Shown here one piece after another: positions 1 through 14,873 of a stretch of DNA of 39,580 nt. How positions within the stretch are numbered: the stretch's first letter is position 1; each line of letters opens with the position of its first letter. The stretch is taken from assembly GCA_024230295.1 (NCBI GenBank), contig JAAERN010000113.1, positions 1-39,580 of the forward strand. Direction: 5' to 3'. Below the pieces are notes generated by a model. It was not told the origin of the DNA. It was given only the letters and a program-made list of their open reading frames with translations, and searched no databases. The position numbers and the translations under genes were made by a program. Source of the stretch: Planctomycetota bacterium (GTDB lineage: Bacteria; Planctomycetota; Phycisphaerae; Phycisphaerales; SM1A02).

Positions 1-141
1 CCGCTTCCGGGACCGAACACGATTCGCATGGGTCAGCACCACGAGGCTCCGGTGAGCGACTCGCCGCACCGACCACTCGCCCACTGGGTGAATGAGTCGC
101 AGCAAAATAATGGGCATGCCGATGAAGGGGGCCATGAATGA
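1..141 (+). CDS. C-terminal end of an unknown His-rich protein (5' truncated)
   Basis: The frame starting at base 1 is open from the window edge to the TGA at 139-141, giving 46 residues that end in NNGHADEGGHE. The tail is rich in His, Pro and Asn, with seven histidines. Its stop overlaps the ATG of the next gene (138-140) in an ATGA junction. The same junction links the next two genes, which argues that this is the real end of an upstream member of the operon rather than chance. No domain is visible in the piece. From context it could be a cytochrome or an assembly or regulatory protein of the electron-transfer module, but that is inference. Confidence 0.55.
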   Translation, partial: PLPGPNTIRMGQHHEAPVSDSPHRPLAHWVNESQQNNGHADEGGHE

Positions 142-1151
142 AGTTGCCCGTACTGCGCCAGGATGATTGCGGCGGCGGAGGTGGTGGGGACGGCGTTCCA
201 CCTGCTGCCGGTCGGGGTTCCAGGCGATCTTTTTTGCGAAGTACAGTATCGGTGGGAGCAGGATTCGCTGCTCTTGGTGCCGCCATCTCGCCACTAGCCG
301 ATCTCGACACCGACAAGGTCTTTGCAGGCGAAGACTTCTTCCGCGAGCACTACAAGGAACTCTCCTCGGAGAACAAGGCCAAACTCTTTGCCGACATCGA
401 AGCCCAGATCGATCGGCAGTACGGCGTCAAGGCCATAGTCGGTGACCCGCAACCTATTCCGGAAGTTGAGTTCGTGTATGCGCTGAATCTTTCCCGCTGC
501 ATTGGTTGCCGTAAGTGTGTGCATGCCTGCGTGAAGGAGAACAACCAGAGTCGCAGCCCGGAGATCCAGTACATTCGAGTGCTGGAAATCCCCATCGGCA
601 CCTTTGATCTGGAACGAGGCAATCAGTACTACGACACGGAAACGCCCAAGCCCGGTTACTTCTACATGCCCATTCAGTGTCACCAGTGCGCGAATCCGCC
701 CTGCACGAAAGTGTGTCCCATCGAAGCGACTTGGCAGGAAGCCGATGGCATCACCGTCATCGACTATGACTGGTGCATCGGATGCCGGTACTGTCAGGCG
801 GCATGTCCCTACTGGGCGCGGCGGTTCAATTGGACCGATCCCGGGATCCCTTCGAGCGAAATCAACCCGGACATGGCGTATCTCTCCAACAGGCCCCGCA
901 GCCGCGGCGTCATGGAGAAGTGCACGTTCTGCTTGCAGCGGACGCGAAAAGGGCGGATGCCCGCGTGCCTCGAGGCGTGCCCGACCGGCAGCCGCAAGTT
1001 CGGCAATATCCTCGATCCGAACAGCGAGGTATCCCAGATCCTTCGGGACAAGCGGGTCTTTGTTCTCAAGGAAGAGGTCGGGACCAACCCCCGTTTCTTC
1101 TATTACTTCGATGAACTCACGCATCGTCTCGGAGAAGGGGGCGAGGCATGA
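138..1151 (+). CDS. Tat-exported four-cluster [4Fe-4S] ferredoxin subunit (NrfC/HybA/DsrO type)
   Basis: This 337-residue protein should carry electrons between a membrane quinol subunit and a periplasmic partner. A twin-arginine motif SRRSFL lies at residues 28-33, followed by a hydrophobic segment (about 35-54), so it is probably exported folded. It is preceded by an odd run of six glycines (12-17). Four cysteine groups typical of the NrfC/DsrO/HybA family follow: CIGCRKCVHAC (from residue 121), CHQCANPPCTKVC, CIGCRYCQAAC, and a last group CTFC...CLEAC with a wide spacing. That is enough cysteines for four [4Fe-4S] clusters. The ATG at 138 directly follows an in-frame TGA, has the purine-rich GAAGGGGG upstream and overlaps the preceding stop. 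The downstream NrfD-like gene overlaps its stop. Which family member it is cannot be decided without a tree. Confidence 0.93.
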   Translation: MKLPVLRQDDCGGGGGGDGVPPAAGRGSRRSFLRSTVSVGAGFAALGAAISPLADLDTDKVFAGEDFFREHYKELSSENKAKLFADIEAQIDRQYGVKAIVGDPQPIPEVEFVYALNLSRCIGCRKCVHACVKENNQSRSPEIQYIRVLEIPIGTFDLERGNQYYDTETPKPGYFYMPIQCHQCANPPCTKVCPIEATWQEADGITVIDYDWCIGCRYCQAACPYWARRFNWTDPGIPSSEINPDMAYLSNRPRSRGVMEKCTFCLQRTRKGRMPACLEACPTGSRKFGNILDPNSEVSQILRDKRVFVLKEEVGTNPRFFYYFDELTHRLGEGGEA

Positions 1152-2419
1152 GGGAATACCTGCGATTCCTGTATCGCTGCTTTCGCATGAGTTTCGTCGG
1201 AGACTGGCGATACAAGTTGTGGATGCTCCTGCTCACGATCGTGACGTTGCTCGGCGTCAATGCCTGGTGCCGACAATTTGTGCACGGGCTCATTGCAACG
1301 GGCATGACCGATCAGGTGTCGTGGGGTCTCTTTATCGCGAACTTCACCTACCTCGTCGGCATGGCGGCGGCAGCCGTAATGCTGGTCATTCCGGTATACG
1401 TCTATCGCAACAAGGAACTCCATGATCTGGTGATCTTCGGCGAGTTGTTCGCCGTGGCGGCCATCATCATGGCCCTGCTCTTCGTAGTGGTGGATCTCGG
1501 GAGGCCCGACCGCATGCAGCACTTGTTCATGCGATTCAACTTCCCGATTTCGATGCTGACTTGGGACGTCATCGTCCTAAACGTCTATCTGCTTCTCAAT
1601 CTACACATCTGTGGATACCTCATCTACAGCAGGTATCGAAAACGCGAACTCGGCCGCTGGTTCTATATCCCTTTCATATTCATTGCCATCGTCTGGGCGA
1701 TCAGCATTCATACGGTGACGGCCTTTCTGCTGGTCGGCCTTGGCGGCCGTCCGTTCTGGAACGCAGCCATCATCGCGCCGCGGTTCATCGCCTCGGCTTT
1801 CTCGGCCGGCCCTGCATTCATCATCTTGACGCTCATGGTCATTGACCGATTCACCCGGTTCTCGGTCCCCAAGAAAGCCTATCTCACGCTTCGGAATCTG
1901 GTGCTTGTCGCCATGACCATCAATGTATTTCTACTTGTCAGCGAAGTCTTCACGGAGTTCTATGCCGACACAGCCCATGGGGCCTCCTCCAAGTACCTCT
2001 GGATTGGGATTCACGACAACACGGCGCTGGTGCCGTGGATCTGGAGCGCTCTTGGGCTGAATTTGACCGCGCTGCTCATGCTGTACCTGCCAATTACCCG
2101 CAGCCGCAAACTGCTCGCAACAGCTTGCGTGATGTTGATCATCGGTATCTGGATCGAGAAAGGCTTGGGCCTCATCGTGCCCGCTTTTGTGCCGACGCCG
2201 GTTGGAGAGATTGTCGAGTACGCGCCTACTTGGAATGAAATCCTCATCTGCACCGGTATCTGGGCCTTTGGCCTGCTGATCTACACGATCTTTGTGCGCG
2301 TCACGATTCCAGTTCTGTCCGGGCAACTGGTCGCGGATCGCATCTTTCATACAACTCCGGAGTCGCCAGCCTCTGTCGCAGGCGACATGACAGACAGAAC
2401 ACAGGAGATACCGTCATGA
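1148..2419 (+). CDS. NrfD/PsrC-family membrane quinol-oxidising subunit
   Basis: This 423-residue integral membrane protein has about ten hydrophobic segments, for example around residues 23-42, 60-85, 96-115 and 140-160. The N-terminal third contains the SWGLFIANFTYLVG and VVDLGRPDR stretches typical of the NrfD/PsrC/DsrP family. Members exchange electrons between the quinone pool and a periplasmic Fe-S subunit such as the one encoded just upstream. The start is the ATG at 1148, which overlaps the previous TGA (ATGA) and has the purine-rich GGAGAAGGGGGCGAGG before it. The stop overlaps the start of the octaheme cytochrome gene in the same way, so the three proteins are almost certainly made together. 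No molybdopterin subunit lies in the window. Subfamily (NrfD, PsrC, HybB or DsrP) is uncertain. Confidence 0.92.
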   Translation: MREYLRFLYRCFRMSFVGDWRYKLWMLLLTIVTLLGVNAWCRQFVHGLIATGMTDQVSWGLFIANFTYLVGMAAAAVMLVIPVYVYRNKELHDLVIFGELFAVAAIIMALLFVVVDLGRPDRMQHLFMRFNFPISMLTWDVIVLNVYLLLNLHICGYLIYSRYRKRELGRWFYIPFIFIAIVWAISIHTVTAFLLVGLGGRPFWNAAIIAPRFIASAFSAGPAFIILTLMVIDRFTRFSVPKKAYLTLRNLVLVAMTINVFLLVSEVFTEFYADTAHGASSKYLWIGIHDNTALVPWIWSALGLNLTALLMLYLPITRSRKLLATACVMLIIGIWIEKGLGLIVPAFVPTPVGEIVEYAPTWNEILICTGIWAFGLLIYTIFVRVTIPVLSGQLVADRIFHTTPESPASVAGDMTDRTQEIPS

Positions 2420-3897
2420 AATACTCAGCGTATCTGGCGGGCATCGCCCTGACTGCCTCGACGGCCGTCGGCGCGATCACCCCGCAAACCGGCACCCCGC
2501 ACGGCACTGGGAGTACAGGAGGCGCCTTTGGCCTGCCTACCATCAGTGCAGCGACGAAGGCGTGCATCAAGTGCCATAAGCAGGAGAACCCAGCGATCTA
2601 TGCGCAGTGGGGCGACAGTCTGCACTTCCGCGCCAACATCGGCTGTTTTGAATGCCACTCGGCGCAGGAAGGCGACGCCGACGCCTTCAACCATCACGGC
2701 GAGACCATTTCCGTCATCGTCAGCCCTCGTGACTGTGCTCGGTGTCACGAGTACGAGGTGACCGAGTTCAAGTCCTCCCGTCACGCCAAGGCTGCTCTCA
2801 TCCTCGGCTCGCTCGACAATGTGCTCGCTGAGGTCGTTGAAGGCAACAAAGGCATGGTCACCGAGTCGTTCCCAATGGGTGTCTCCTCCGCAGCCGTCAA
2901 CGGCTGCTGGCAGTGCCATGGGAGCACGGTCAAGATACACGCCGATGGCAGCCTCGATCCAGCGACATGGCCCAACAGCGGTATCGGCCGGATCAATCCA
3001 GATGGATCCGAAGGTTCATGCACAGCTTGTCACGTACGGCATTCCTTCAGTGCTGCGCAGGCGCGGCATCCGGATACGTGCGGTAAATGCCATATGGGGC
3101 CGGATCACCCACAGAAGGAAATATACGAGGAGTCAAAGCACGGAATCCTATTCTTCGCCAACGAAGACGAGATGAATCTGCATTCGCCGAAGTGGATCGT
3201 CGGCGAGGACTACTCCGCTGCACCGACCTGCGCAACATGCCACATGTCCGCTACGACAAATCAACCCGTGACCCATGATGTAGGCATGCGGATCAGTTGG
3301 AACAACCGGTCAACCCTTTCCGTGCGCCCAGAGGTGAGCGATAAGAAGTTGGGTCTTCCAGGTGCCGATGTGCCATGGCAAGTTCGCCGCAGCAACATGC
3401 AGGATGTGTGCAGTTCTTGCCACAATCAATCGTGGATCGACAACTTTTACACGCAGTACGATAGCCTCATCGATCTGTACAACACCAAGTTCGCCATACC
3501 GGGCAAGAAGCTGTATGGCCTTGCCAAACCGCTCATGAAGCCGGTCAAATTTTCCAACAAGATTGACTTCGTTTGGTTTGAAATCTGGCATCACGAAGGT
3601 CGTCGCGCCCGGCACGGCGCCTCAATGATGGGCCCTGACTACACACATTGGCACGGAACCTACGTAATCGCCAAGAACTTCTACTCTGATTTCATCCCGG
3701 AATTAGAGAACCTCGTCGAGAAGGGACTGAGCTCTGGAGATGATGCGAAAGTTGCTGCCGCGAAGACGTTGCAAGCCGAAATTGACAAAGTGCTTCACTC
3801 CAGCGATCACAAGTGGTTCATCGGCGAGATGGATCCCAAAGAGGCGGCTGCTAGAAAGAAGGCCGCTAAAGAGTTCGAGAGTCGGTACAAGAAATGA
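2416..3897 (+). CDS. Octaheme cytochrome c, hydroxylamine oxidoreductase (HAO) family
   Basis: The 493-residue exported protein has a Sec signal peptide (about residues 1-20) and eight CxxCH haem sites, starting near residues 50, 77, 107, 164, 202, 222, 272 and 332. Number and spacing fit the HAO family. The block around haem 6, GPDHPQKEIYEESKHGI, and the block after the last haem, GRRARHGASMMGPDYTHWHG (397-416), are family-typical. HAO oxidises hydroxylamine, whereas relatives in other bacteria reduce nitrite or hydroxylamine. The direction depends on a tyrosine cross-linked to haem 4, which I cannot assign without alignment; Tyr409 in GPDY is worth testing. Coupling to ferredoxin and NrfD-like genes favours a quinol-driven reductase. 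The start at 2416 overlaps the previous stop and has AGGAGAT upstream. Confidence 0.93.
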   Translation: MKYSAYLAGIALTASTAVGAITPQTGTPHGTGSTGGAFGLPTISAATKACIKCHKQENPAIYAQWGDSLHFRANIGCFECHSAQEGDADAFNHHGETISVIVSPRDCARCHEYEVTEFKSSRHAKAALILGSLDNVLAEVVEGNKGMVTESFPMGVSSAAVNGCWQCHGSTVKIHADGSLDPATWPNSGIGRINPDGSEGSCTACHVRHSFSAAQARHPDTCGKCHMGPDHPQKEIYEESKHGILFFANEDEMNLHSPKWIVGEDYSAAPTCATCHMSATTNQPVTHDVGMRISWNNRSTLSVRPEVSDKKLGLPGADVPWQVRRSNMQDVCSSCHNQSWIDNFYTQYDSLIDLYNTKFAIPGKKLYGLAKPLMKPVKFSNKIDFVWFEIWHHEGRRARHGASMMGPDYTHWHGTYVIAKNFYSDFIPELENLVEKGLSSGDDAKVAAAKTLQAEIDKVLHSSDHKWFIGEMDPKEAAARKKAAKEFESRYKK

Positions 3898-3901
3898 TCC
3901 C

Positions 3902-4345
3902 GTGACCGATCCCATGGAGCAACTCGAGACCGATGCCGACGAGGCGCTTCATGAGCACATTCTGCGCACAGCCCAACTCGGCCGGCAGCGACATGCGCCC
4001 TTCTCGACGCTCGAGCGTCTGCAACCGCTGCTGGCCGATCGGAATGTGGTGCGGTATCCGGTGGAAGTCGTGTTTGACGCGGATCCACTGCAAGCGGATG
4101 AGTTCGCCTGCGCGGAACTCATCGGCAAGACGATCGCAGAAGGATTTCGGTTGAGCGTGCATCCGCACTACGAAGGCCACGCCTCCGCGCTGCCCATCCT
4201 GATCGCCTATCACATCCCGAGCATCAACTACGGACCGATTGTGACCGCTGAACATGCCGAAGCATTCGGTTCGACGTTGCTTGGGATGGATGCTGAGGAG
4301 TACTACCAACGCGTATGCGCGTTGGCGGACGGAATCGGTTCGTAG
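3902..4345 (+). CDS. Conserved-looking hypothetical protein, end of the HAO operon
   Basis: I do not recognise this family. The frame gives 147 residues from a GTG at 3902, or 143 from an ATG at 3914; neither has a convincing ribosome site. It lies only 4 bases after the octaheme gene and before a strong hairpin, so it is probably the last gene of the operon. The protein is soluble-looking, acidic at the N-terminus (METDADEALHEH-like), with no signal peptide, no cysteine pair for metal binding and no haem site. The middle (VRYPVEVVFDADPLQADEFACAE) suggests an alpha/beta fold. The wider open frame runs further upstream inside the cytochrome gene and is not used here. A cytoplasmic accessory role is possible but unsupported. 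Confidence 0.7.
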   Translation: MTDPMEQLETDADEALHEHILRTAQLGRQRHAPFSTLERLQPLLADRNVVRYPVEVVFDADPLQADEFACAELIGKTIAEGFRLSVHPHYEGHASALPILIAYHIPSINYGPIVTAEHAEAFGSTLLGMDAEEYYQRVCALADGIGS

Positions 4346-5836: not shown

Positions 5837-8635
5837 TCAATCGCCCGCGTCGAGAATGCGAACCCGGCCATCCATGCTCAGCATCGCAACCTGCTGATCA
5901 TCCCCAATGAAACCAGCGGCCATGACGATGCCAGTTCGCCATGGAAGTGTCGCGAGAAGCATGCCAGTATGGGAATCCAGAAGCGTGACGTCGCCCTCAA
6001 GTGCTGTACTCAAGAGCCGCAAGCCGTCGCTGCTCAGTGCAATGTTGCGAATGCGCGTGTGGTGTACTTGTCGGCTCCAGAGTGTGACACCAGATGCGTT
6101 CTGAACGCTGACAACGCCATCGGCTTGCCCCAGAGCTACCAAGCCTGCTTCGCTGTCTGTGTTCCATCCCTGTTCGACATGTGTGTCGGAGTCCGGAACG
6201 ATGTCGCCGCCGGGAAGCCGGCGTCTGGTACGCACGCCTGACGATTCAATCACTGCGGTTCCGTCCGTCTCGATTCGGGCGTGCTCAATGGGGAGATTCC
6301 ACTGGACCTGCAACTCCGAGTCGCCTCGGCGTCGCCATCGGTGCAATGTGCCGTCCGCGCCCCGCGTGAGGATCCATGCGCCATCGGGGGAAAATCGGAC
6401 GGACCTTGCGGCCTGATCCTGATGCGCATCGGCGGACCACGACGTTTCGCTCCCAGTGAAGTCGGTCACACGAATTGTTCCACCGGCATCGAGACTTGCA
6501 AGCGATGCAGCGTCCGGGGCCAACTCAATGGAGACGATGCCTCGCTCGTGTGTGATGACAGGGAGTTCCTCGCTTGCCATGAGGGTGTCGGTTCGCAGCA
6601 CCCATGCGTTCGAAGTGCCAGCCGAGGCAGCGCCGACAGCGAGGAGTGCTCCATCCGGGCTGAGCGCGACGACTGCTGGTCCCTGGCTCATGCGAATGCT
6701 CCGCCTAGAGCCCGCTGGGTTGGCGGTCCAGATGGTCAGACCGCCAGTGACATCGCACGTGGCGATGGTTTGGCCGCCATCGGAGACCGTCAGTGCTGCG
6801 TCGGTGCCGAGCATTCGGTCGGAAATGATGTCGTCGAGGCGAACAGTTCCGTCACGCAGGTCCAGCACCAAAATACGCGTCTTGGCAGTCAGGCTGGCGG
6901 GGTCTAGGGGATTGAGTGGGGGTGCTGTTGCGATGGCGACGACTGTTCCGGCATGGTCAGTCTTGATGCCGACGATCTGTGACGAAGGAATGTTGCTGCG
7001 GAGGATACGGCGCTCGCTCAATCCATTTGAAACGCCAAGTGTGTTGTCAGCCCCGACGTCAATCACATCGCCAGAGTTAGCAAGTCGGCTGTGTACCCAG
7101 TTCGATGGAAGCGTAATGGTGCGACCGTTGCCGCTTGTTGAGGTTGTATGTTCCTTGCCGATCGCGGTGACATGTCCCATGCGATCGACTGAAGCATCGG
7201 CCCGATCTGCTGTGGTGAGGTTGACGAGTTTGTCGCTGGCCTTCCGGTTGATCCATGCCCATTCCCAGTGTCGGAGATCTTGAGGGCATGACTCGAGCAT
7301 CGTCATTGCGCTGGTGGCATCTCCGCGATCAAGTGCATCGGATGCTTGTTGAATAATGGCTCGGTATTCGGCGCGCCGCTTTGATGCCGACTCCGTGGCG
7401 GCTGAATCAATGGCCGTTTGCGTCTGTTCCATCTGTGTTGCAATGATGGCCGCTGCAATGACCGCGCCACCGATGAGCAGGGCCGTAGCAGCAGAGGCCA
7501 CTGGTGCTCGGCGGACGAGCCTTCGCGTTCGGTAGGCAATCGAGGCGGGCCGTGCGCTGATGGGTCTGTGATCAAGGAAGGCTCGGAGGTCCTCGGCTAA
7601 TGCGCCGGCATTCGGATATCTCCGCGGCGGCTCTTTTTCTAAGGCGTGCAGGACAATCGTTCGCAGGTCACGCGGCGCGGCGAACGATGCCGGGGGCCGT
7701 TCGGTGATGATTCGGCTCGCTGCGGCGAGATTGTCGCGTGGCAGCTCGTATGGGAGTACTCCTGCGAGTGCTTGATAGAGCAGTACACCCAGGGCATAGA
7801 CATCGCTCGTTGGTTCGATACCGGTCAGCCCCGAGATTTGCTCGGGGCTCATCCATGGGACCGTGCCAATGACGGTTCCCTCGGTGGTGGCGAGCGATCT
7901 GCTCGCGTGGCCGCCGTGGGCGATTCCGAAGTCGAGGATCTTCGGCCGACCATCCTCCGTGACCAGAATATTGGCGGGCTTGAGGTCACGGTGCACAACG
8001 CCTAGGGCATGGGCAGCCTGCACGCCGTCGGCGATTGATGCAATTAGGGACACGCGTTTGGCGAGTGATGGTTGGTGGGCTTCGAGCCATGTTGTCAGCG
8101 GCGTGCCTTCGATGAGCTCCATCGCGGCCCAAGGTCGCGAGTCCTCGAGTTCGCCAGCAGCGAGTACGCGGGCAACCGCCGGGTGATCAATGCCCGCGAG
8201 CGTCTCCGCTTCGGACTCGAACCGATTCCGTTGCGCGGCGTCGGCCATCGGATCGGCCATAACTTTGATCGCGACAGGTCGGTGGGGACGTTCCTGAATG
8301 CCTTCATAGACAACGCCGTCGCCGCCGCGGCCGATGATGCGTACGAGGCGAAATCCGGGAATCGTTTCGGTGACGACCGGCGCGGTGCGTTCTCGCGGCC
8401 CGGGGTGCGACGCGGCGTGCCCGGCGTGAAAGTCCGGCCCAAGGGCGGCAGATTCCATAAATCCGTCCGCTTGATCATTGGCCAAGAGGTCTTCGACCTG
8501 CTGGCGAAGCGTGTCATCGTTGCAACAGGTTTCGTCGAGGTATGCCGGGCGGGCCTCTGCACCGAGTTCGCGGGCGGCCTCGAAGATCTCGCGGACCCGT
8601 CGCCACTGCTGCGGAGTCAGCCCTTCACTGCTCAT
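5837..8635 (-). CDS. Transmembrane Hanks-type Ser/Thr kinase with WD40-like C-terminal domain
   Basis: The 932-residue protein has a helical N-terminal extension (LTPQQWRRVREIFEAA), common in planctomycete kinases, then a complete kinase domain. The glycine loop GRGGDGVVYEG lies near 102-112, the ATP lysine is in VAIKVM (Lys124), the catalytic loop is HRDLKPANIL (215-224), DFG starts near 236, and PWMSPEQ marks the activation segment. One transmembrane helix follows (about 385-407). The roughly 500-residue remainder has WD40-like blades, for example SPDGAWILTRGADGTLHRW and SMDGRVRILDAGD, and is probably an extracytoplasmic sensor or binding platform. The start overlaps the sigma-factor stop by an ATGA junction, so the two are translationally coupled. 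Such kinases are thought to signal to their partner sigma factor, but the target here is unknown. Confidence 0.92.
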   Translation of the reverse strand: MSSEGLTPQQWRRVREIFEAARELGAEARPAYLDETCCNDDTLRQQVEDLLANDQADGFMESAALGPDFHAGHAASHPGPRERTAPVVTETIPGFRLVRIIGRGGDGVVYEGIQERPHRPVAIKVMADPMADAAQRNRFESEAETLAGIDHPAVARVLAAGELEDSRPWAAMELIEGTPLTTWLEAHQPSLAKRVSLIASIADGVQAAHALGVVHRDLKPANILVTEDGRPKILDFGIAHGGHASRSLATTEGTVIGTVPWMSPEQISGLTGIEPTSDVYALGVLLYQALAGVLPYELPRDNLAAASRIITERPPASFAAPRDLRTIVLHALEKEPPRRYPNAGALAEDLRAFLDHRPISARPASIAYRTRRLVRRAPVASAATALLIGGAVIAAAIIATQMEQTQTAIDSAATESASKRRAEYRAIIQQASDALDRGDATSAMTMLESCPQDLRHWEWAWINRKASDKLVNLTTADRADASVDRMGHVTAIGKEHTTSTSGNGRTITLPSNWVHSRLANSGDVIDVGADNTLGVSNGLSERRILRSNIPSSQIVGIKTDHAGTVVAIATAPPLNPLDPASLTAKTRILVLDLRDGTVRLDDIISDRMLGTDAALTVSDGGQTIATCDVTGGLTIWTANPAGSRRSIRMSQGPAVVALSPDGALLAVGAASAGTSNAWVLRTDTLMASEELPVITHERGIVSIELAPDAASLASLDAGGTIRVTDFTGSETSWSADAHQDQAARSVRFSPDGAWILTRGADGTLHRWRRRGDSELQVQWNLPIEHARIETDGTAVIESSGVRTRRRLPGGDIVPDSDTHVEQGWNTDSEAGLVALGQADGVVSVQNASGVTLWSRQVHHTRIRNIALSSDGLRLLSTALEGDVTLLDSHTGMLLATLPWRTGIVMAAGFIGDDQQVAMLSMDGRVRILDAGD

Positions 8636-9189
8636 CCCGTCAGGCGTGATCGCAGCCAGGCGCGAGCGGTGCCCCAGTCGCCTTCGATCGTTCGCTTTGA
8701 AAACCCGAGGACCTCGGCCACTTCTCCGACCTCGAGTCCGCCGAAGAATCGAAGTTCGACGACTTGGGCCATTCGGGAGTCCATCTTTCCAAGTTCTCGC
8801 AGCGCGTCGTCGAGGTCCAGCAGGTCGACGCCATGCGGTCCGGCAATCGCTAACGCGTCATCCATCGGGATGCGAGCTCGCCCGCCGCCACGCTTCGCCG
8901 CAGACTTACTTCTCGCGTGGTCAATCAAAATACGTCGGATGGCCTCAGCGGCTGCGGCAAAGAAATGGGCCCGCGAGTTCCACTGGCGTCCCGACGCATC
9001 CAGGCGGACATAGATCTCGTTGACAAGGGCCGTCGCCTGAAGCGTGTGCCCCGGCCGCTCCTCGTTCATCGCCTTCTGCGCGATCCGGCGGAGTTCGTCA
9101 TAGACCTCGCCGACGAGTTCGTTCGTGCCCCGCTGGGCAGAATCCCCGTCGGAATCCGGGGTGGTTGGGTTGTGCGGCGTTGATGACAC
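8632..9189 (-). CDS. RNA polymerase ECF-subfamily sigma factor (TIGR02999-like)
   Basis: The protein has about 185 residues from a GTG at 9189 (VSSTPHNP). The open frame extends further upstream to 9405, but that would run across the divergent gene starting at 9290, and the extra N-terminus looks non-coding. Region 2 appears as VYDELRRIAQKAM through SRAHFFAAAAEAIRRILIDHARSK, which is diagnostic of the planctomycete-rich TIGR02999 group. Region 4 is VVELRFFGGLEVGEVAEVLGFSKRTIEGDWGTARAWL, a helix-turn-helix for the -35 element. It overlaps the kinase gene (ATGA). There is no anti-sigma factor; in this arrangement the kinase is the presumed regulator. The ribosome site is weak, so the exact start is uncertain. 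Confidence 0.9.
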   Translation of the reverse strand: MSSTPHNPTTPDSDGDSAQRGTNELVGEVYDELRRIAQKAMNEERPGHTLQATALVNEIYVRLDASGRQWNSRAHFFAAAAEAIRRILIDHARSKSAAKRGGGRARIPMDDALAIAGPHGVDLLDLDDALRELGKMDSRMAQVVELRFFGGLEVGEVAEVLGFSKRTIEGDWGTARAWLRSRLTG

Positions 9190-9289
9190 AGTCTGGGGTC
9201 TGAGTATAGGGGGTGGCCCACTATTCCTTGCGGCCCGAGGAGGGGATTCTCGCCTCTCGGGGTAACGGAATAACTCAGGAGTCTTGCAC

Positions 9290-10096
9290 ATGTTGACCAT
9301 CATTCGAAGCGAAATCCTCCCCTGTCTCGCAGCCATCACGCTTGCGGGCATTCTTGGAGTTGGCGCGGTGGCGAGCGCTTTGGGCTCGCCGTCCGGTGAC
9401 GGCACTATCGGCAGTTTGCCAATTCAGCAGATACTGCATGCCGCCCCAATCCCCGGTGGCGGGCAGATAGACCCGGTTCCGTGGGGCAATGGCGGCACCT
9501 ACGGCGGCCCCGGCGACATCGTGCCGCCCGGTGCGGGCGAGCACACGATTGGTATGTGCACCATGGAACTGCCGCCCACGGGCTGCGCGACCGACCCGCA
9601 GTGTGATCTTGGCTGGGAGTGGACCTTGGATGACGAGCGATGCGTGTGGCCGCGATTCGGACCCGGTAGCGGGCTGCCCCATGTGGCGCAGGGATACATG
9701 TTCACGATTGCCGACGTTGTTGCGATGCTGCAGCCAGGTTCTGGCTGCATTGACTGGCAGGGCAACATTACGATCTGCGTGGATGCTCCATTCGATGTCC
9801 ACGAAGTGCACGTCTTTCAGTCCGGTTGGATCAATGGCTACGTGCCGACCGCTGCGATCGAAAACGCTGTTTCGACCAAGGTGTGCATTGGAGGCGAGAC
9901 GGTGATGGCTGGCTGGTCCTTCGAGGAACTGGCCGAAGCTCAGAACTGTGACTTTCCGACCGTCTGTATCACCTTCAGCGCCGAATGCATGATGGCTGCC
10001 CTGCGAGACTGGGCCGCCTCCGGGCTCGATCCAAGCCAGTGGGCGGGCAGCTGGCTCTTTTATGTCGACTTCGTGAGCTGCACGCCCTGCGACTGA
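9290..10096 (+). CDS. Secreted hypothetical protein, cysteine-rich
   Basis: The protein has 268 residues from the ATG at 9290, which has AGGAG (9277-9281) eight bases upstream; a TTG two codons earlier is less likely. A signal peptide (about 1-30, ILPCLAAITLAGILGVGAVASA) is followed by a Gly/Pro-rich stretch and a mature domain with about 13 cysteines in short-spaced pairs (CTMELPPTGC, CIDWQGNITIC, CTPC), typical of disulphide-stabilised exported proteins. No catalytic signature is visible and I do not recognise the family. It is divergent from the sigma/kinase pair, with about 100 bases between the starts that must hold both promoters; whether the sigma factor controls it is a reasonable but untested idea. 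Confidence 0.82.
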   Translation: MLTIIRSEILPCLAAITLAGILGVGAVASALGSPSGDGTIGSLPIQQILHAAPIPGGGQIDPVPWGNGGTYGGPGDIVPPGAGEHTIGMCTMELPPTGCATDPQCDLGWEWTLDDERCVWPRFGPGSGLPHVAQGYMFTIADVVAMLQPGSGCIDWQGNITICVDAPFDVHEVHVFQSGWINGYVPTAAIENAVSTKVCIGGETVMAGWSFEELAEAQNCDFPTVCITFSAECMMAALRDWAASGLDPSQWAGSWLFYVDFVSCTPCD

Positions 10097-10644: not shown

Positions 10645-12543
10645 ATGGCCAATCTGGTTCGCGGTTCAGTGTTGATTTCGATCGCCACAGTGGTAAGTGC
10701 AGCAGTGGGGGAGACCGTAGCCTATAAGCAGATCGGCGCCCCGCCATCCGACGTGACCTGCGGTTGGCTCCAGGCCCCCGACCCAGCCGAAGTCGGCGCG
10801 CGATCCAGATGCACGCAGATTCCATTTGTAACTGAAGACGGCGCGATAGACATTGCCTTTGACGTGCCGTCGTGCGGGCATCTCGCCGTCGTGCCGATGG
10901 GTATTGGATGCGCGGCGTGGAATGTCAGCCTCATTCGCCCTGACGGCTCAATCGCTGTCTCTGGCGTAGACGGCGTATTGCAGCGGACGGACTCGCTTAT
11001 GCCGATCGCCGATGAGTCGGGAACTCGGTTCGATGTCGGAAATCCGGCGCCCGGCAGATGGACCGCTTCGCTCTCTGGATTACCAAGTGCAGCGCGAGGC
11101 GTGCTGCTGGTCCGGGACGACGCTCCCTTCGAACTTCGCAGCACACTGGATACCTACAGCCTTCTTGAGGGCGCACCGGTCACACTCAAGTGTTCGCTGA
11201 TGGGGATCGATGGTGGTGAGGCACAGATCACATCCTGTACGGCGCAGTGGCGCGGCCCCGACGGTCGATGGCGGCCGATTGACGTGACGCAGCGAAACGG
11301 CGAACGGACCGTCACGCTGACACCTCCTGCGGGCGAACATGTGGTGCAAGTTGATGTCGATGCAATCGCAACTGACAGCGGCCAACTTCTGCACCGCACG
11401 CTCTTGCATCTGGTCAAGATCGAATCTTCGCCGCCGGTGCTGAGCGGCGAAGTGTCAATGGAATCAATTGACGAGGCCCGCATTGATGTGGCGCTGGGGT
11501 GCGCGGCAGCGGGGCCACGCGAAAAACTTCTCGCAGGTGCCGAAGTATGGGCAACGGGCGATCAAGGCGCGACGCTGTGTGGATGGATTGGCGGTATGGC
11601 CGCGGTTGATGAGCATGGCGTGCATCTGACGCTGGATACGCGGTGGATTGCTGCGGCCGGCTGCGACGGGGCTGGCGTGGAGTTGCGAGCCGTGAGGCTG
11701 GCGGATCCGAAGTCGGCGATCACGTTGGCAAAGGTCGCCTCAGTTTCTCTTGGAACGATCGAAGTTTGCCGCCGCCCGGTTACAGCCTCCGGCCAAGAAG
11801 CCATGCACATGGGCAAGCCTGACCGTGGCAGTGTGGACGTGACGCCTCCCGCGCGAGGTGGGCTCGGCGGCGGGCACAATCTCATGCTCGTTCATGGCTA
11901 CTGCTCGAGCGGCGTGTCGTGGCCCGCGGGACACTTCAGTGGTGATGTGTCGATGTACCAAAACTCGAATCAGAACTTTAGTCACGACGAGTTCGCAATC
12001 GACGTGGCGTCGTTCGGCTTGCAATACAAGAGTTACGGCATCGCCGGGCACAGTCAGGGCGGCCAGGCCGCCTTGCACATGTACAGTTTTTACTGGACAG
12101 GCCTTGACTGGGCGATGCCTTCGCCGCAGGACGGTGGCCGCATCATTCAGAACCTCGGTGTTCCTTACTACGGCACGGCTTTGGCCGGTGACTTAGCACT
12201 GCTCGGAGAGATCTTCGGAGCGGGCTGCGGCGTCAATTGGGATATGACCTATGACGGCGCGGCAAACTGGCTCTCGTATGTCCCGGGTTGGGCGAGAGCG
12301 CAGACATGGTCTTGGACGACGACGTTCTATGACGGGTGGGGATATGACTATTGCCATCTTGGCACGGATCTGTTTCTGTGGGATCCAGAAGATGGAGTCG
12401 TGGAGTCATTTTCAGGCGAACTTGATGGCGGCAACTTCAGGGGGCTCAAGGAAGGCTGGTGCCACATTCACGGCATGTCCGATCCGGCGCAAGTGGATGA
12501 CTCCAGTCGGAACAACGAAATCAACGTGGAGGCAGCACGATGA
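10645..12543 (+). CDS. Exported alpha/beta-hydrolase (lipase/esterase-like) with N-terminal beta-rich domains
   Basis: The gene encodes 632 residues from the ATG at 10645, which has AAGGAGAG (10633-10640) just upstream; the frame extends 21 codons further but without a signal. Residues 1-20 are a signal peptide. Residues about 25-390 are beta-rich, with Ig- or CARDB-like patterns (VTLTPPAGEHVVQVDVDA) and no known catalytic site. The last 240 residues are an alpha/beta-hydrolase: oxyanion HG in MLVHGYCSSG near 416 and the nucleophile elbow GHSQGG with Ser470. The final segment (HLGTDLFLWDPEDGVV ... CHIHGMSDP) supplies candidate Asp and His for the triad. It resembles extracellular lipases or esterases; the substrate is unknown. 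It overlaps the next gene by ATGA. Confidence 0.82.
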   Translation: MANLVRGSVLISIATVVSAAVGETVAYKQIGAPPSDVTCGWLQAPDPAEVGARSRCTQIPFVTEDGAIDIAFDVPSCGHLAVVPMGIGCAAWNVSLIRPDGSIAVSGVDGVLQRTDSLMPIADESGTRFDVGNPAPGRWTASLSGLPSAARGVLLVRDDAPFELRSTLDTYSLLEGAPVTLKCSLMGIDGGEAQITSCTAQWRGPDGRWRPIDVTQRNGERTVTLTPPAGEHVVQVDVDAIATDSGQLLHRTLLHLVKIESSPPVLSGEVSMESIDEARIDVALGCAAAGPREKLLAGAEVWATGDQGATLCGWIGGMAAVDEHGVHLTLDTRWIAAAGCDGAGVELRAVRLADPKSAITLAKVASVSLGTIEVCRRPVTASGQEAMHMGKPDRGSVDVTPPARGGLGGGHNLMLVHGYCSSGVSWPAGHFSGDVSMYQNSNQNFSHDEFAIDVASFGLQYKSYGIAGHSQGGQAALHMYSFYWTGLDWAMPSPQDGGRIIQNLGVPYYGTALAGDLALLGEIFGAGCGVNWDMTYDGAANWLSYVPGWARAQTWSWTTTFYDGWGYDYCHLGTDLFLWDPEDGVVESFSGELDGGNFRGLKEGWCHIHGMSDPAQVDDSSRNNEINVEAAR

Positions 12544-13319
12544 AACAGCACATGATTCTTATCAGTGTTCTTTCAGCGCAGTCGGCAGCAGTCGCCAGTT
12601 GGTGTGGGTCCGGAACGGCGAGCATTCCTGATGATGGGCAATCCGTTCGAGTGTGGACCGCGCAGGCCGATGAACTCTCGGACGCCCTGGTTGTGAACGC
12701 GAGGCTCTACGTGTCGCTTGAGCACTCATGGGTGGGCGACTTGACCATTGAAATCGCCTCGCCAGATGGCACAGCGGTGACTGTTCTGGATCGTCCCGGC
12801 ATGCCCGACGGTGGGTGGGTGGGCCCTTGGGGCTGCGGGGGTGATGACATCATGGTGCTCTTCGATGACTCGGCGTCTGAGGCTGCCGAGGACACTTGTA
12901 CGCAGTTTGATGTGCCGGTTCTCTCTGGCAACAAGCGACCACTTGAGCCGCTTTCTGCCATGTATGGCGTGCCAGCGGCGGGAGCGTGGCAGATCCGTTT
13001 CAGCGATGCCTCGCCCATTGATGCAGGTACGGTCTTGATTGCATGCCTCACCTTGGAGACGAGCCCGGATTGCAACGGCAATGGCATTCCCGATATCGAC
13101 GACATTGCCGGTGGGGGCAGCGAGGATGGCGATCAGGACGGCGTGCCGGACGAATGTCAGTGCGCGGCGGATCTTGATGGCAACGCGGTTGTCAACGTCA
13201 ATGACGTTCTCATCATGATCGGGCAGTTTGGATCGCCCGGCACTGCCGATCTCGATGGCGATGGACTGGTTGATACGGATGACCTGCTGATACTGCTCGC
13301 CGCATGGGGCAACTGCTGA
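12540..13319 (+). CDS. Secreted P-domain protein with dockerin-like tail
   Basis: The protein has 259 residues. A signal peptide (about 1-20) is followed by a proprotein-convertase P/Homo B domain (about 25-175), recognisable by VNARLYVSLEHSWVGDLTIEIASPDGTAVTVLDRPG and GAWQIRFSDASPIDAGTVL. A single DCNGNGIPDIDDI...DGVPDEC repeat comes next. The end is a dockerin-like pair of calcium loops: ADLDGNAVVNVNDVLIMIGQFG and ADLDGDGLVDTDDLLILLAAWGNC. P domains usually assist subtilisin-type proteases, but no protease domain is present here, so it may bind or stabilise the hydrolase encoded upstream, whose stop its ATG overlaps. The tail is shared with two other secreted proteins in the window. Confidence 0.9.
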   Translation: MKQHMILISVLSAQSAAVASWCGSGTASIPDDGQSVRVWTAQADELSDALVVNARLYVSLEHSWVGDLTIEIASPDGTAVTVLDRPGMPDGGWVGPWGCGGDDIMVLFDDSASEAAEDTCTQFDVPVLSGNKRPLEPLSAMYGVPAAGAWQIRFSDASPIDAGTVLIACLTLETSPDCNGNGIPDIDDIAGGGSEDGDQDGVPDECQCAADLDGNAVVNVNDVLIMIGQFGSPGTADLDGDGLVDTDDLLILLAAWGNC

Positions 13320-13323
13320 GGAT

Positions 13324-13875
13324 ATGAACATCGATCAGGCTCGAACCTTGATGCATGAGTGGGTGCAATCAGACTCGCTGCGTCATCACATGGAGTGCGT
13401 GTCTGCGTGTATGCGTCACTGCGCTCAGCGGGTTGCGCCAAGCGAAGTTGAGCGGTGGGGCGTGTGCGGCCTGCTGCATGATTTCGATTATGAGCGGCAT
13501 CCGACGATGGAGGAGCATCCCTTCGTCGGAATCGCGCATCTGCGAGAACACACCGATGTGGATGAGGAAATCATCGAGGCGATCCTCGGGCACGCGATGT
13601 ACAGCGGTGTGCCGAGGCAATCCGACATGGCCAAGCATCTCTTTGCGATGGATGAATTGGCTGGGTTTATCGTCGCGTGCTGCAAAGTGCGGCCTGGAGG
13701 AATCGAGGGCCTGGCGCCAAAGTCGGTACGCAAGAAACTCAAGACAGCAAGTTTCGCTGCTGCAGTGAGCCGATCGGACATTGCGATTGGCGCGGAGGAA
13801 CTTGGCATGGAGCCCGCCGAGCACATTCAGTGGTGCATCGACGGGCTACGAGCTTCGGATCTCATCGAATCGTGA
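13324..13875 (+). CDS. HD-domain (HDIG-type) predicted hydrolase
   Basis: The 183-residue soluble protein carries an HD superfamily domain: the HD doublet in LLHDFD (His52-Asp53), upstream histidines at 21-22, and downstream HPFVGIAHL and GHAMYSG segments that complete the metal site pattern. Such small HD proteins hydrolyse phosphate esters or nucleotides; the substrate cannot be read from the sequence. It starts 4 bases after the previous stop, with GAGGA overlapping that stop as ribosome site, so it is probably the last gene of the hydrolase/P-domain operon, although its predicted cytoplasmic location does not fit the two exported neighbours. Confidence 0.87.
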   Translation: MNIDQARTLMHEWVQSDSLRHHMECVSACMRHCAQRVAPSEVERWGVCGLLHDFDYERHPTMEEHPFVGIAHLREHTDVDEEIIEAILGHAMYSGVPRQSDMAKHLFAMDELAGFIVACCKVRPGGIEGLAPKSVRKKLKTASFAAAVSRSDIAIGAEELGMEPAEHIQWCIDGLRASDLIES

Positions 13876-13911
13876 CGTAGGCCTCAGACGCGAGAATCGT
13901 CTCATCCTACG
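13876..13911 (+). terminator. Imperfect hairpin after the HD gene
   Basis: CGTAGG (13876-13881) pairs with CCTACG (13906-13911), and an inner AGACG pairs with CGTCT, giving an interrupted 11-bp stem directly after the stop codon. No T-run follows. It may serve both convergent genes. Confidence 0.4.
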
Positions 13912-13998
13912 CTCGGTTGAGGTCGCCGATCGAGATCATGGCGGATGTGCGCGCCTTGCATGAGCGGGACGTTGGGGCCGCAATGGTGACGGGGGTGC

Positions 13999-14691
13999 TC
14001 ATTTCGATTCATCAACCGTTACAGCAACAATCGGAAAGACGCACTGTGGGGCGCCTCGCGACATCGTTTCGTAGCGGTCGTAATCAAACCGAAGGCCGTA
14101 TCTGCGGGCGTCGATTCGATCGAACCAGAGCGAATCGAGTCGGCACAGGACGGTTGTTAGCAGTGGCAGATCGTGCGCACGGAAGAAGTCCACGTAGAAA
14201 CATCGGCTGATCTGCATGTCGACTTCGGCGTCCTGCTCGAGCATGTCCCAGTCGAAACTCGCGCCGAACTGCGTGAGCATGGAGCCGAGTACTCGCTTCA
14301 CACGGCCGAGGTTCCCCCTGCATGCCCGGAGGACCAATCGCACGCCCAGCCGCATCAATCGTGTATTGAATCCCCGGAGCGATATATCTCCGAGGTACTC
14401 GATGGTCTTCTCGTCTGTGTCGAATCGTGGCCGAAGGACCTGATAGGCGGCGAGTATCCAGGCGCTCCACTCAAGGTGTCCTCGCGAAGGAGGGTCGATG
14501 ACCCGCATCTGGTCTGACACCATGATCTCGCCGGCCTTCCACGCAATCGACCGCATGACAGCGGTTCGCTCCGCGCGATCGAGCTGTAATGGCTGCTCGA
14601 GAAGCGACTTCGCAAACGCTCTGCGAATCGCCTTCACGGTGAAGTGGCCGAAAATCAAATGACGCACCAAGCCCGAGAGTTCCTTCTTCAT
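13999..14691 (-). CDS. ATC-hydrolase family protein (PF14196-like)
   Basis: The protein has 230 residues from the ATG at 14691 (MKKELSGLVRHLIFGHF); an earlier start at 14790 would add a Pro/Ala-rich segment lacking coding character. The C-terminal block matches the L-2-amino-thiazoline-4-carboxylate hydrolase family: CFYVDFFRAHDLPLLTTVLCRLDSLWFD, then YGLRFDYDRYETMSRGAPQCVFPI. The family includes an enzyme of bacterial cysteine production from ATC and many uncharacterised proteins. The three conserved positions I would look for (Cys in the VLC segment, Asp in RLD, Cys in QCVF) are all present. It is a single gene, divergent from the DUF4091 gene, with a strong hairpin in between. Substrate unknown. 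Confidence 0.68.
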   Translation of the reverse strand: MKKELSGLVRHLIFGHFTVKAIRRAFAKSLLEQPLQLDRAERTAVMRSIAWKAGEIMVSDQMRVIDPPSRGHLEWSAWILAAYQVLRPRFDTDEKTIEYLGDISLRGFNTRLMRLGVRLVLRACRGNLGRVKRVLGSMLTQFGASFDWDMLEQDAEVDMQISRCFYVDFFRAHDLPLLTTVLCRLDSLWFDRIDARRYGLRFDYDRYETMSRGAPQCVFPIVAVTVDESK

Positions 14692-14714
14692 GAAAGGCAG
14701 GGTAGCAGTTCGCA

Positions 14715-14873
14715 ATGCGACCACCCCCCGCGTTGCCGGAACAGACGACGCGGGGGGCGGTGCTTCGCAAATCCGTGTCTGATGCAGCAATCGTTGATTT
14801 TGCCTCCGAGATTGGATCAGACGTTGTTGCTGTTGATGCCTCGGGACGGCTGCACGTACTTCCCGGCTCCTGA
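14715..14873 (+). CDS. Possible small ORF (52 aa) in the divergent intergenic region
   Basis: An ATG at 14715 opens a 52-codon frame ending at TGA 14871-14873, ten bases before the DUF4091 start. The second half (SDAAIVDFASEIGSDVVAVDASGRLHVLPG) reads like protein, while the first half coincides with the GC hairpin at 14720-14761. No ribosome site is visible. It may be a remnant, a leader peptide or chance. Confidence 0.25.
   Translation: MRPPPALPEQTTRGAVLRKSVSDAAIVDFASEIGSDVVAVDASGRLHVLPGS
14720..14761. promoter_or_regulatory. Strong GC hairpin between divergent genes
   Basis: A 10-bp perfect stem (CCCCCCGCGT, 14724-14733 / ACGCGGGGGG, 14748-14757) is extended by three more pairs after one mismatch, with a 14-base loop. 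It sits in the 5' region of both divergent genes (29 bases above the minus-strand start, about 120 bases above the plus-strand start) and not at any gene end. A leader or operator role is possible. Confidence 0.4.

Follow-up and report, generated by a model that had tools for sequence, protein, structure and literature searches.

An octaheme cytochrome c with an NrfD-type membrane module in a planctomycete genome, a probable quinol:nitrite reductase

The first genes of contig C113 of a planctomycete draft genome (G000, 2.7 Mb) encode what is probably a periplasm-facing quinol:nitrite reductase, in which an octaheme cytochrome c of the hydroxylamine oxidoreductase (HAO) family would be served by a membrane pair and a tetraheme cytochrome. 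Ammonium is its most likely product, which we propose with less confidence than the quinol:nitrite reductase itself. The window, i.e. the whole stretch of DNA analysed, is the entire contig (39,580 bases) from its start, and the operon lies on the plus strand: the C-terminal 46 codons and stop of the tetraheme cytochrome c (TET; 1..141, the remainder lying beyond the contig), a ferredoxin exported by the twin-arginine (Tat) route (138..1151, 337 aa), an NrfD-family integral membrane subunit with the quinol site (1148..2419, 423 aa), the octaheme cytochrome c (OCC; 2416..3897, 493 aa), which is the presumed catalytic subunit, and a fifth gene, c4 (3902..4345, starting at GTG 3902 or ATG 3914). 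The first four make up a real, conserved and under-described respiratory module. A previous sequence-only reading of this DNA described four frames joined by ATGA overlaps, and all of the frames and all three junctions were verified (the frame-1 stop at 139-141 over the ATG at 138, then 1148-1151 and 2416-2419). The same reading proposed looking for this gene order in related genomes. A search for the same genes recovered the four-gene order in 16 other genomes of the class (Phycisphaerae), and the locus is therefore more than a chance arrangement.

The octaheme cytochrome and its operon

The octaheme protein has exactly eight CxxCH motifs and matches PF13447, which places it in the HAO superfamily. 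Its best structure match is PDB entry 4qo5 (E 2.3e-54), which we take to be IhOCC of Ignicoccus hospitalis, followed by HAO and other HAO-like entries including 6h5l. We aligned 121 octaheme rows, comprising the window, 80 named loci and 40 loci from the class, with a few genomes occurring twice. D230 and H231 correspond to D267 and H268 of Nitrosomonas europaea HAO (numbering from the alignment), presumably the active-site Asp-His pair, and are present in 120 and 121 of the 121 rows, respectively. M404 and W412 are invariant, Tyr is found at the latter position in no row, and His413, beside Trp412, is kept in 116 rows. According to PMC8940962, after Haase and co-workers, the Tyr that forms the cross-link is replaced by Trp in reductive Hao proteins, with a Met located eight residues upstream of this Trp (papers are cited here by PubMed Central identifier), and M404 and W412 have the same spacing as in this reductive, epsilon-Hao pattern; the cross-link column is taken from that account, as a C-terminal profile aligned to 4qo5 but not to HAO. 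In PMC12758564 the residue named for the key position of reductive proteins is His; in either case, no Tyr is present here. The search for a tyrosine cross-linked to heme 4, which the sequence-only reading had proposed as a check, thus returned Trp and no Tyr at the reported site in all 121 rows, and the protein lacks the feature that marks oxidative HAO/HDH enzymes. In 4qo5, the closest structure solved, Phe aligns with Trp412, so that it too has no Tyr, and it carries Asp-Val, without the His of the pair. CxxCK, the catalytic heme motif of the ONR/NrfA type, occurs in none of the 121 octaheme rows; some NrfA clades carry CxxCH at the catalytic heme (PMC8840924). With Trp at the reported cross-link site, the Asp-His pair kept and no CxxCK, the octaheme is, as judged from its residues, of the reductive type. 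It also fits the evidence as the only candidate catalyst in the operon, as had been suggested.

The small conserved c4 protein has a homologue in 25 of the 80 named loci, mostly directly downstream of OCC, and its family alignment holds 26 sequences. It has no Pfam match, and its AlphaFold model, although confident (pLDDT 95.9), gave no PDB fold match at E <= 0.001.

The membrane pair and the tetraheme cytochrome

The ferredoxin, a DsrO/NrfC-like protein with the Pfam domain Fer4_11, contains 16 Cys in four [4Fe-4S] cluster motifs, one extra Cys and, by eye, the twin-arginine stretch SRRSFL. Its best NCBIfam model is DsrO, at 177.4 bits and under the cut-off of 200. The NrfD-family protein scores 133 bits with PF03916 and passes the NCBIfam equivalog for DsrP, NF045798 (397.8 bits versus a cut-off of 350), whereas it falls far under NrfD's own NCBIfam model (25.7 versus 347.6 bits). 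Its 18 overlapping hydropathy segments, merged by eye, give about ten hydrophobic helices, and DsrP is predicted to have about ten such segments (PMC8076601). The NrfD-family membrane subunit and the four-cluster ferredoxin together have the composition of an NrfD-like quinol complex.

The first 46 codons of the window, described earlier as a His-rich end, are indeed the end of a protein and can now be identified as the C-terminus of the tetraheme cytochrome. An open reading frame of 231-325 aa with four CxxCH motifs precedes the ferredoxin gene in the 16 other class genomes with the module. These frames begin with a hydrophobic stretch (by eye), and their C-terminal part reads PLPGPNTLRMG in many relatives, matching the window's first codons (PLPGPNTIRMG). 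Moreover, the upstream part of the operon was probably recovered in the same genome, at the end of contig C63, where a 130-aa N-terminal tetraheme piece with two CxxCH, 41% identical to that of a relative, runs off the contig behind a Porin_O_P gene; the middle part, with two hemes, is missing from both C63 and C113. A molybdoenzyme or NrfA directly upstream of base 1, which would have overturned the sequence-only reading, is ruled out by the tetraheme gene found there in relatives and on C63. The four CxxCH motifs and four further His are invariant in 36 aligned tetraheme sequences (nine of the 45 frames found were left out, among them L118 because of a frame error), as would be expected of an electron carrier with four bis-His hemes. 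We rejected a NapC/NrfH quinol dehydrogenase, as the tetraheme of one relative scored 21.2 bits with PF03264 (Cytochrom_NNT), below the cut-off of 24.1. The tetraheme AlphaFold model is mediocre (pLDDT 75, hemes absent) and had no PDB fold match at E 0.001.

Distribution of the module and of nitrogen genes

Scanning a collection of species genomes gave at least 559 confirmed octaheme relatives, the best 80 of which (57-83% identical) were analysed as named loci. Ferredoxin and NrfD genes lie within 5 kb of the octaheme gene in 47 of the 80, and 43 of these 47 have a detected tetraheme gene. In the remaining loci the module is cut by contig ends (2), the pair is absent despite enough flank (15), or its presence cannot be told (16). 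Five loci have the order octaheme-tetraheme-ferredoxin-NrfD, with the genes downstream, and one is divergent, indicating that the linkage outlives gene order. By record title or NCBI rank, the carriers include Planctomycetota (among them a contig assigned to Scalindua), Verrucomicrobiota, Bdellovibrionota, Myxococcota, Acidobacteriota, Cloacimonadota, Aminicenantes and Thermodesulfobacteriota; all are metagenome-assembled genomes, and such names may be in error. When the 56 rows with the module and the 23 without it are labelled on a quick octaheme tree, 5 changes of label are required, compared with a mean of 20.1 for shuffled labels, none of 500 shuffles being as low; in this count rows L077, L096 and L128 repeat genomes G154, G166 and G200, and the two contig-cut loci are taken as having the module. 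Furthermore, across 46 sequences the distances among octahemes are correlated with those among NrfD proteins (r 0.58), and in 25 of the 46 both proteins have the same nearest neighbour. The module of L104 (Candidatus Scalindua sp. SCAELEC01) is nearest to that of L122 (Desulfobacteraceae), with about 80% identity for each of octaheme, NrfD and ferredoxin, a closeness that may reflect either lateral transfer or mis-binning.

Seven gammaproteobacterial loci with enough flank (L124, L129, L131, L135, L138, L146 and L148) have the octaheme without the pair, and FNR-like regulators are found near several gammaproteobacterial octahemes. In L146, L135, L129, L138 and L124 the pair-less octaheme stands beside a TPR-like protein, and the flanks of four of these loci also encode an FNR-like regulator. 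NapA (E 1e-200) is encoded within flanks of up to 8 kb in 14 of the 80 named loci, eight of these also having NapG, NapH or NapB, as assigned by neighbour cluster; one of the 15 proteins in the NapA-like neighbour cluster, from L125, had no NapA match and was dropped. Neighbour clusters 8, 9 and 14 consist of minus-strand open reading frames and were taken for antisense shadows. Four named loci (L077, L080, L093 and L149) bear OFTM isolate names like those of the study PMC10732223, in which hao was annotated in tunnel metagenome-assembled genomes.

Within the class, we sampled 298 genomes. The octaheme family (E 1e-10) is present in 65 of them, and 29, G000 included, have a close octaheme (65% identity or more): 17 with the module, 11 without it and one, G245, that is a fragment. 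The NrfA family (PF02335, E 1e-30, which may include octaheme ONR-type proteins) is found in 54 genomes and never together with the octaheme family, where 11.8 co-occurrences are expected (hypergeometric 3.6e-7); the close octahemes alone give 0 against 5.3 expected (0.002). Ten family codes hold both kinds, so that this exclusion does not come down to one deep split. NarG (E 1e-100) is found in 11 of the 298 genomes (8 pass the curated cut-off, and in G000, G252 and G275 it is in pieces that fall below), and nine of the 11, including G000, have a close octaheme (1.07 expected, 1.1e-8); the other two have NrfA. NapA-like proteins (E 1e-150) occur in 15 genomes, only 1 of them over the NapA cut-off. 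Seven of the 15 have any octaheme (P 0.025), and in six the NapA-like gene is no more than 1.4 kb from the octaheme gene, five of these six with the more distant octaheme group. The Hcp family is present in only 7 of the 29 close-octaheme genomes, where 12.9 are expected. On contig C66 of G089, a prismane-family (PF03063) gene at 13776-14798 adjoins an octaheme gene at 11978-13384 on the opposite strand, the match covering profile positions 159-503 only.

The nitrogen genes of G000 include NarG, in pieces on contigs C64 and C121, followed by NarH and NarI. The last two score over cut-off, and NarI has a fused cytochrome c. A gene for the iron-sulfur repair protein RIC lies upstream of narG, and two NarK-like carriers score below their cut-offs. 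The two narG ends (the C64 end, L166 6389-7208, and the C121 start, L168 1-820) overlap by 820 bp with 90% DNA and 97% protein identity, so that the draft genome either carries narG twice or mixes two strains. At the thresholds used, G000 gave no NapA, NrfA, NirK-type or Hcp match, with 3 of 8 NapA candidates scored, and the PF02239 (NirS) search had no match in G000 and none in the control genomes either. The third molybdoenzyme of G000, the only other one at E 1e-10, was rejected as a nitrate reductase, as it belongs to the FdhF/YdeP family. At E 1e-10, PF00115, the family that presumably also holds NorB, has two matches in G000. The best NCBIfam model of each is cytochrome c oxidase subunit I, one of them scoring just under cut-off, so that no NorB was seen. 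Apart from the octaheme, these searches found no reductase for the nitrite that Nar would make in G000.

Proposed reaction, alternatives and known systems

From gene content, motifs, conservation, linkage and exclusion we propose an electron path, a substrate and a product. Quinol would be oxidised at the NrfD/DsrP-like subunit, and electrons would travel by way of the exported ferredoxin, with its four [4Fe-4S] clusters, and then the membrane-anchored tetraheme cytochrome, with its four hemes, to the octaheme, which would reduce nitrite at heme 4, free of a tyrosine cross-link, most likely fully to ammonium. The nitrite would come from NarGHI and be exported by the NarK-like carriers in G000, and would come from Nap in some other genomes; the NrfD subunit may in addition translocate protons. 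Three observations make ammonium the most likely product: the mutual exclusion of octaheme and NrfA, the low frequency of Hcp in close-octaheme genomes and the fact that no Nor was seen in G000. The sequence-only reading had proposed a quinol-driven reductase of nitrite, hydroxylamine or a sulfur species, or else a reverse oxidase. The reductase fits the evidence, with its NrfCD-like pair, its octaheme as the candidate catalyst and a gene context that points to nitrite, whereas a sulfur substrate and a reverse oxidase are disfavoured by the lack of Tyr at the reported site, the linkage to Nap and Nar and the exclusion of NrfA.

Several observations weigh against quinol-driven nitrite reduction to ammonium. 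Among 28 informative close-octaheme genomes, 11 have no close NrfD anywhere (two of them have matches of 31-33% identity), and six of these module-less genomes have NarG, i.e. six of the nine that combine NarG with a close octaheme. The octaheme can therefore use another donor, and its link to the module is not obligate. At the thresholds used, 19 of the 29 close-octaheme genomes have neither NarG nor NapA, and in the class a close octaheme and NapA are found together no more often than chance would give (1 of 29, 1.5 expected). The hypergeometric values ignore shared ancestry, the ferredoxin and NrfD proteins resemble DsrO and DsrP, and the product may instead be nitric oxide (NO) or hydroxylamine.

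It is unlikely that the same module serves partial denitrification, with the octaheme making NO from nitrite. KsHAOr, a protein with no Tyr cross-link, does reduce nitrite to NO (PMC12758564), PMC11266412 proposes an Onr-like protein with NO or ammonium as product for UBA1845 genomes, in which narGH and norBC are present and nitrite reductases are lacking, and the RIC gene of G000 lies near narG; however, NorB was not seen in that genome, the PF00115 matches being oxidase subunits, and the protein that the octaheme family excludes in the class, NrfA, is an ammonifier. We consider improbable the release of free hydroxylamine to be finished by another enzyme, as in the reverse hydroxylamine:ubiquinone redox module (reverse-HURM) proposed for Nautilia profundicola with a Tyr-less HaoA and Hcp (PMC3701875), or a role mainly in detoxifying hydroxylamine or nitrite. 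The scarcity of Hcp among close-octaheme genomes and the lack of a match in G000 stand against it, a dependence of the octaheme on Hcp finds no support in the Hcp distribution, and the dedicated membrane quinol module points to respiration.

Some carriers of the octaheme belong to genera that we take to be sulfur oxidisers, and the NrfD subunit passes the DsrP model. Reduction of a sulfur compound (sulfite, polysulfide or tetrathionate), in the manner of MccACD or Dsr-type complexes, is nevertheless very unlikely. MccACD/SirA is an octaheme sulfite reductase with an NrfCD-type pair (PMC8076601), but MccA is barely detectable by sequence: the match of 4rkm to the octaheme has E 0.024 over only 29 residues, versus 1.9e-79 for 4qo5. 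DsrMKJOP likewise has O- and P-like subunits with a multiheme cytochrome, but its J subunit is triheme, whereas the operon here has a tetraheme and an octaheme; DsrM, DsrK and a triheme DsrJ are all absent from the operon, Dsr genes elsewhere in G000 not having been searched for. In addition, Nap genes are among the recurrent neighbours of the octaheme, and NrfA is excluded. Reverse operation, with hydroxylamine oxidised into the quinone pool, would suit the HAO family membership and the retained Asp-His pair, but it is highly improbable given the absence of Tyr from the reported cross-link position in all rows and the linkage to nitrate reductases.

The proposed nitrite-reducing module has precedents, and the novelty that the sequence-only reading saw in a direct quinone module was overstated (PMC5276818, PMC8076601, PMC3701875). 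Among the closest are TDIS_0606-0609 and DBT_2326-2329 of Thermosulfurimonas and Dissulfuribacter (PMC5276818, 2017), where a HaoA homologue, NrfD, a periplasmic 4Fe-4S protein and a transmembrane cytochrome c are clustered with nap. Nitrite reduction or sulfur metabolism was suggested for this locus in PMC5276818, and PMC4911364 draws a locus of this type as an unnamed oxidoreductase. These loci differ in coming from two deep-sea thermophiles, and their homology to the present module is judged by the papers' descriptions. The epsilon-Hao/reverse-HURM systems of Nautilia, Campylobacter, Caldithrix and Deferribacter share an HAO-family octaheme near Nap, no NrfA and a quinol donor, and the absence of the Tyr, stated for Nautilia and Caldithrix, is shared with the octaheme here. 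The proposed donor differs, being of the NapC/NrfH type in Nautilia, where HaoA is thought to be quinol-linked via a NapC-type cytochrome (PMC3701875), and a Rieske/cytochrome b complex or alternative complex III in Caldithrix, whereas here it would be the iron-sulfur/NrfD pair with the tetraheme. Nap-Hao pairing with other partners is described in PMC5317091 and PMC6896113, and according to PMC11266412 the cultured Poriferisphaera corsica encodes a related octaheme. The enteric NrfABCD system also combines an NrfC-like ferredoxin, an NrfD-like subunit, a small multiheme carrier and a multiheme nitrite reductase, but it uses the pentahemes NrfA and NrfB in place of an HAO-family octaheme and a tetraheme, and the NrfD protein here fits DsrP best. 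According to PMC3701875, NrfAH and reverse-HURM genes were found together in just one of the genomes known at the time, which already hinted at the exclusion between octaheme and NrfA. In the literature searched, which covered few subscription papers and others in part, we found neither a description of the module as a unit conserved across phyla nor one of this exclusion in planctomycetes.

If nitrite is indeed its substrate, the module would give a testable answer to the fate of nitrite in planctomycetes and other uncultured groups that have NarG but no recognised nitrite reductase, with nitrogen being retained as ammonium. It would also supply reductive HAO-type enzymes, the donors of which are under debate, with a quinol route of their own. 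We regard it as possible, though short of probable, that tetraheme, ferredoxin, NrfD and octaheme form a distinct, energy-coupled class of ammonium-forming systems that replaces NrfA across several phyla, the DsrP-type subunit tying ammonification to proton translocation; such a class would so far have gone unnoticed behind the names hao, Onr-like and dsrP. Automatic labels can mislead on these genes, hao towards nitrification or anammox and dsrP towards sulfate reduction: a dsrP label from annotation pipelines may mark the NrfD gene as a sulfate-reduction subunit, whereas its relatives sit in a nitrate/nitrite context.

Elsewhere in the window, the minus strand holds two genes with overlapping ends, at 5837-8635 and 8632-9405. 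By Pfam, they are an ECF sigma factor gene and, behind it, a gene for a protein kinase that includes a region of WD40-like repeats.

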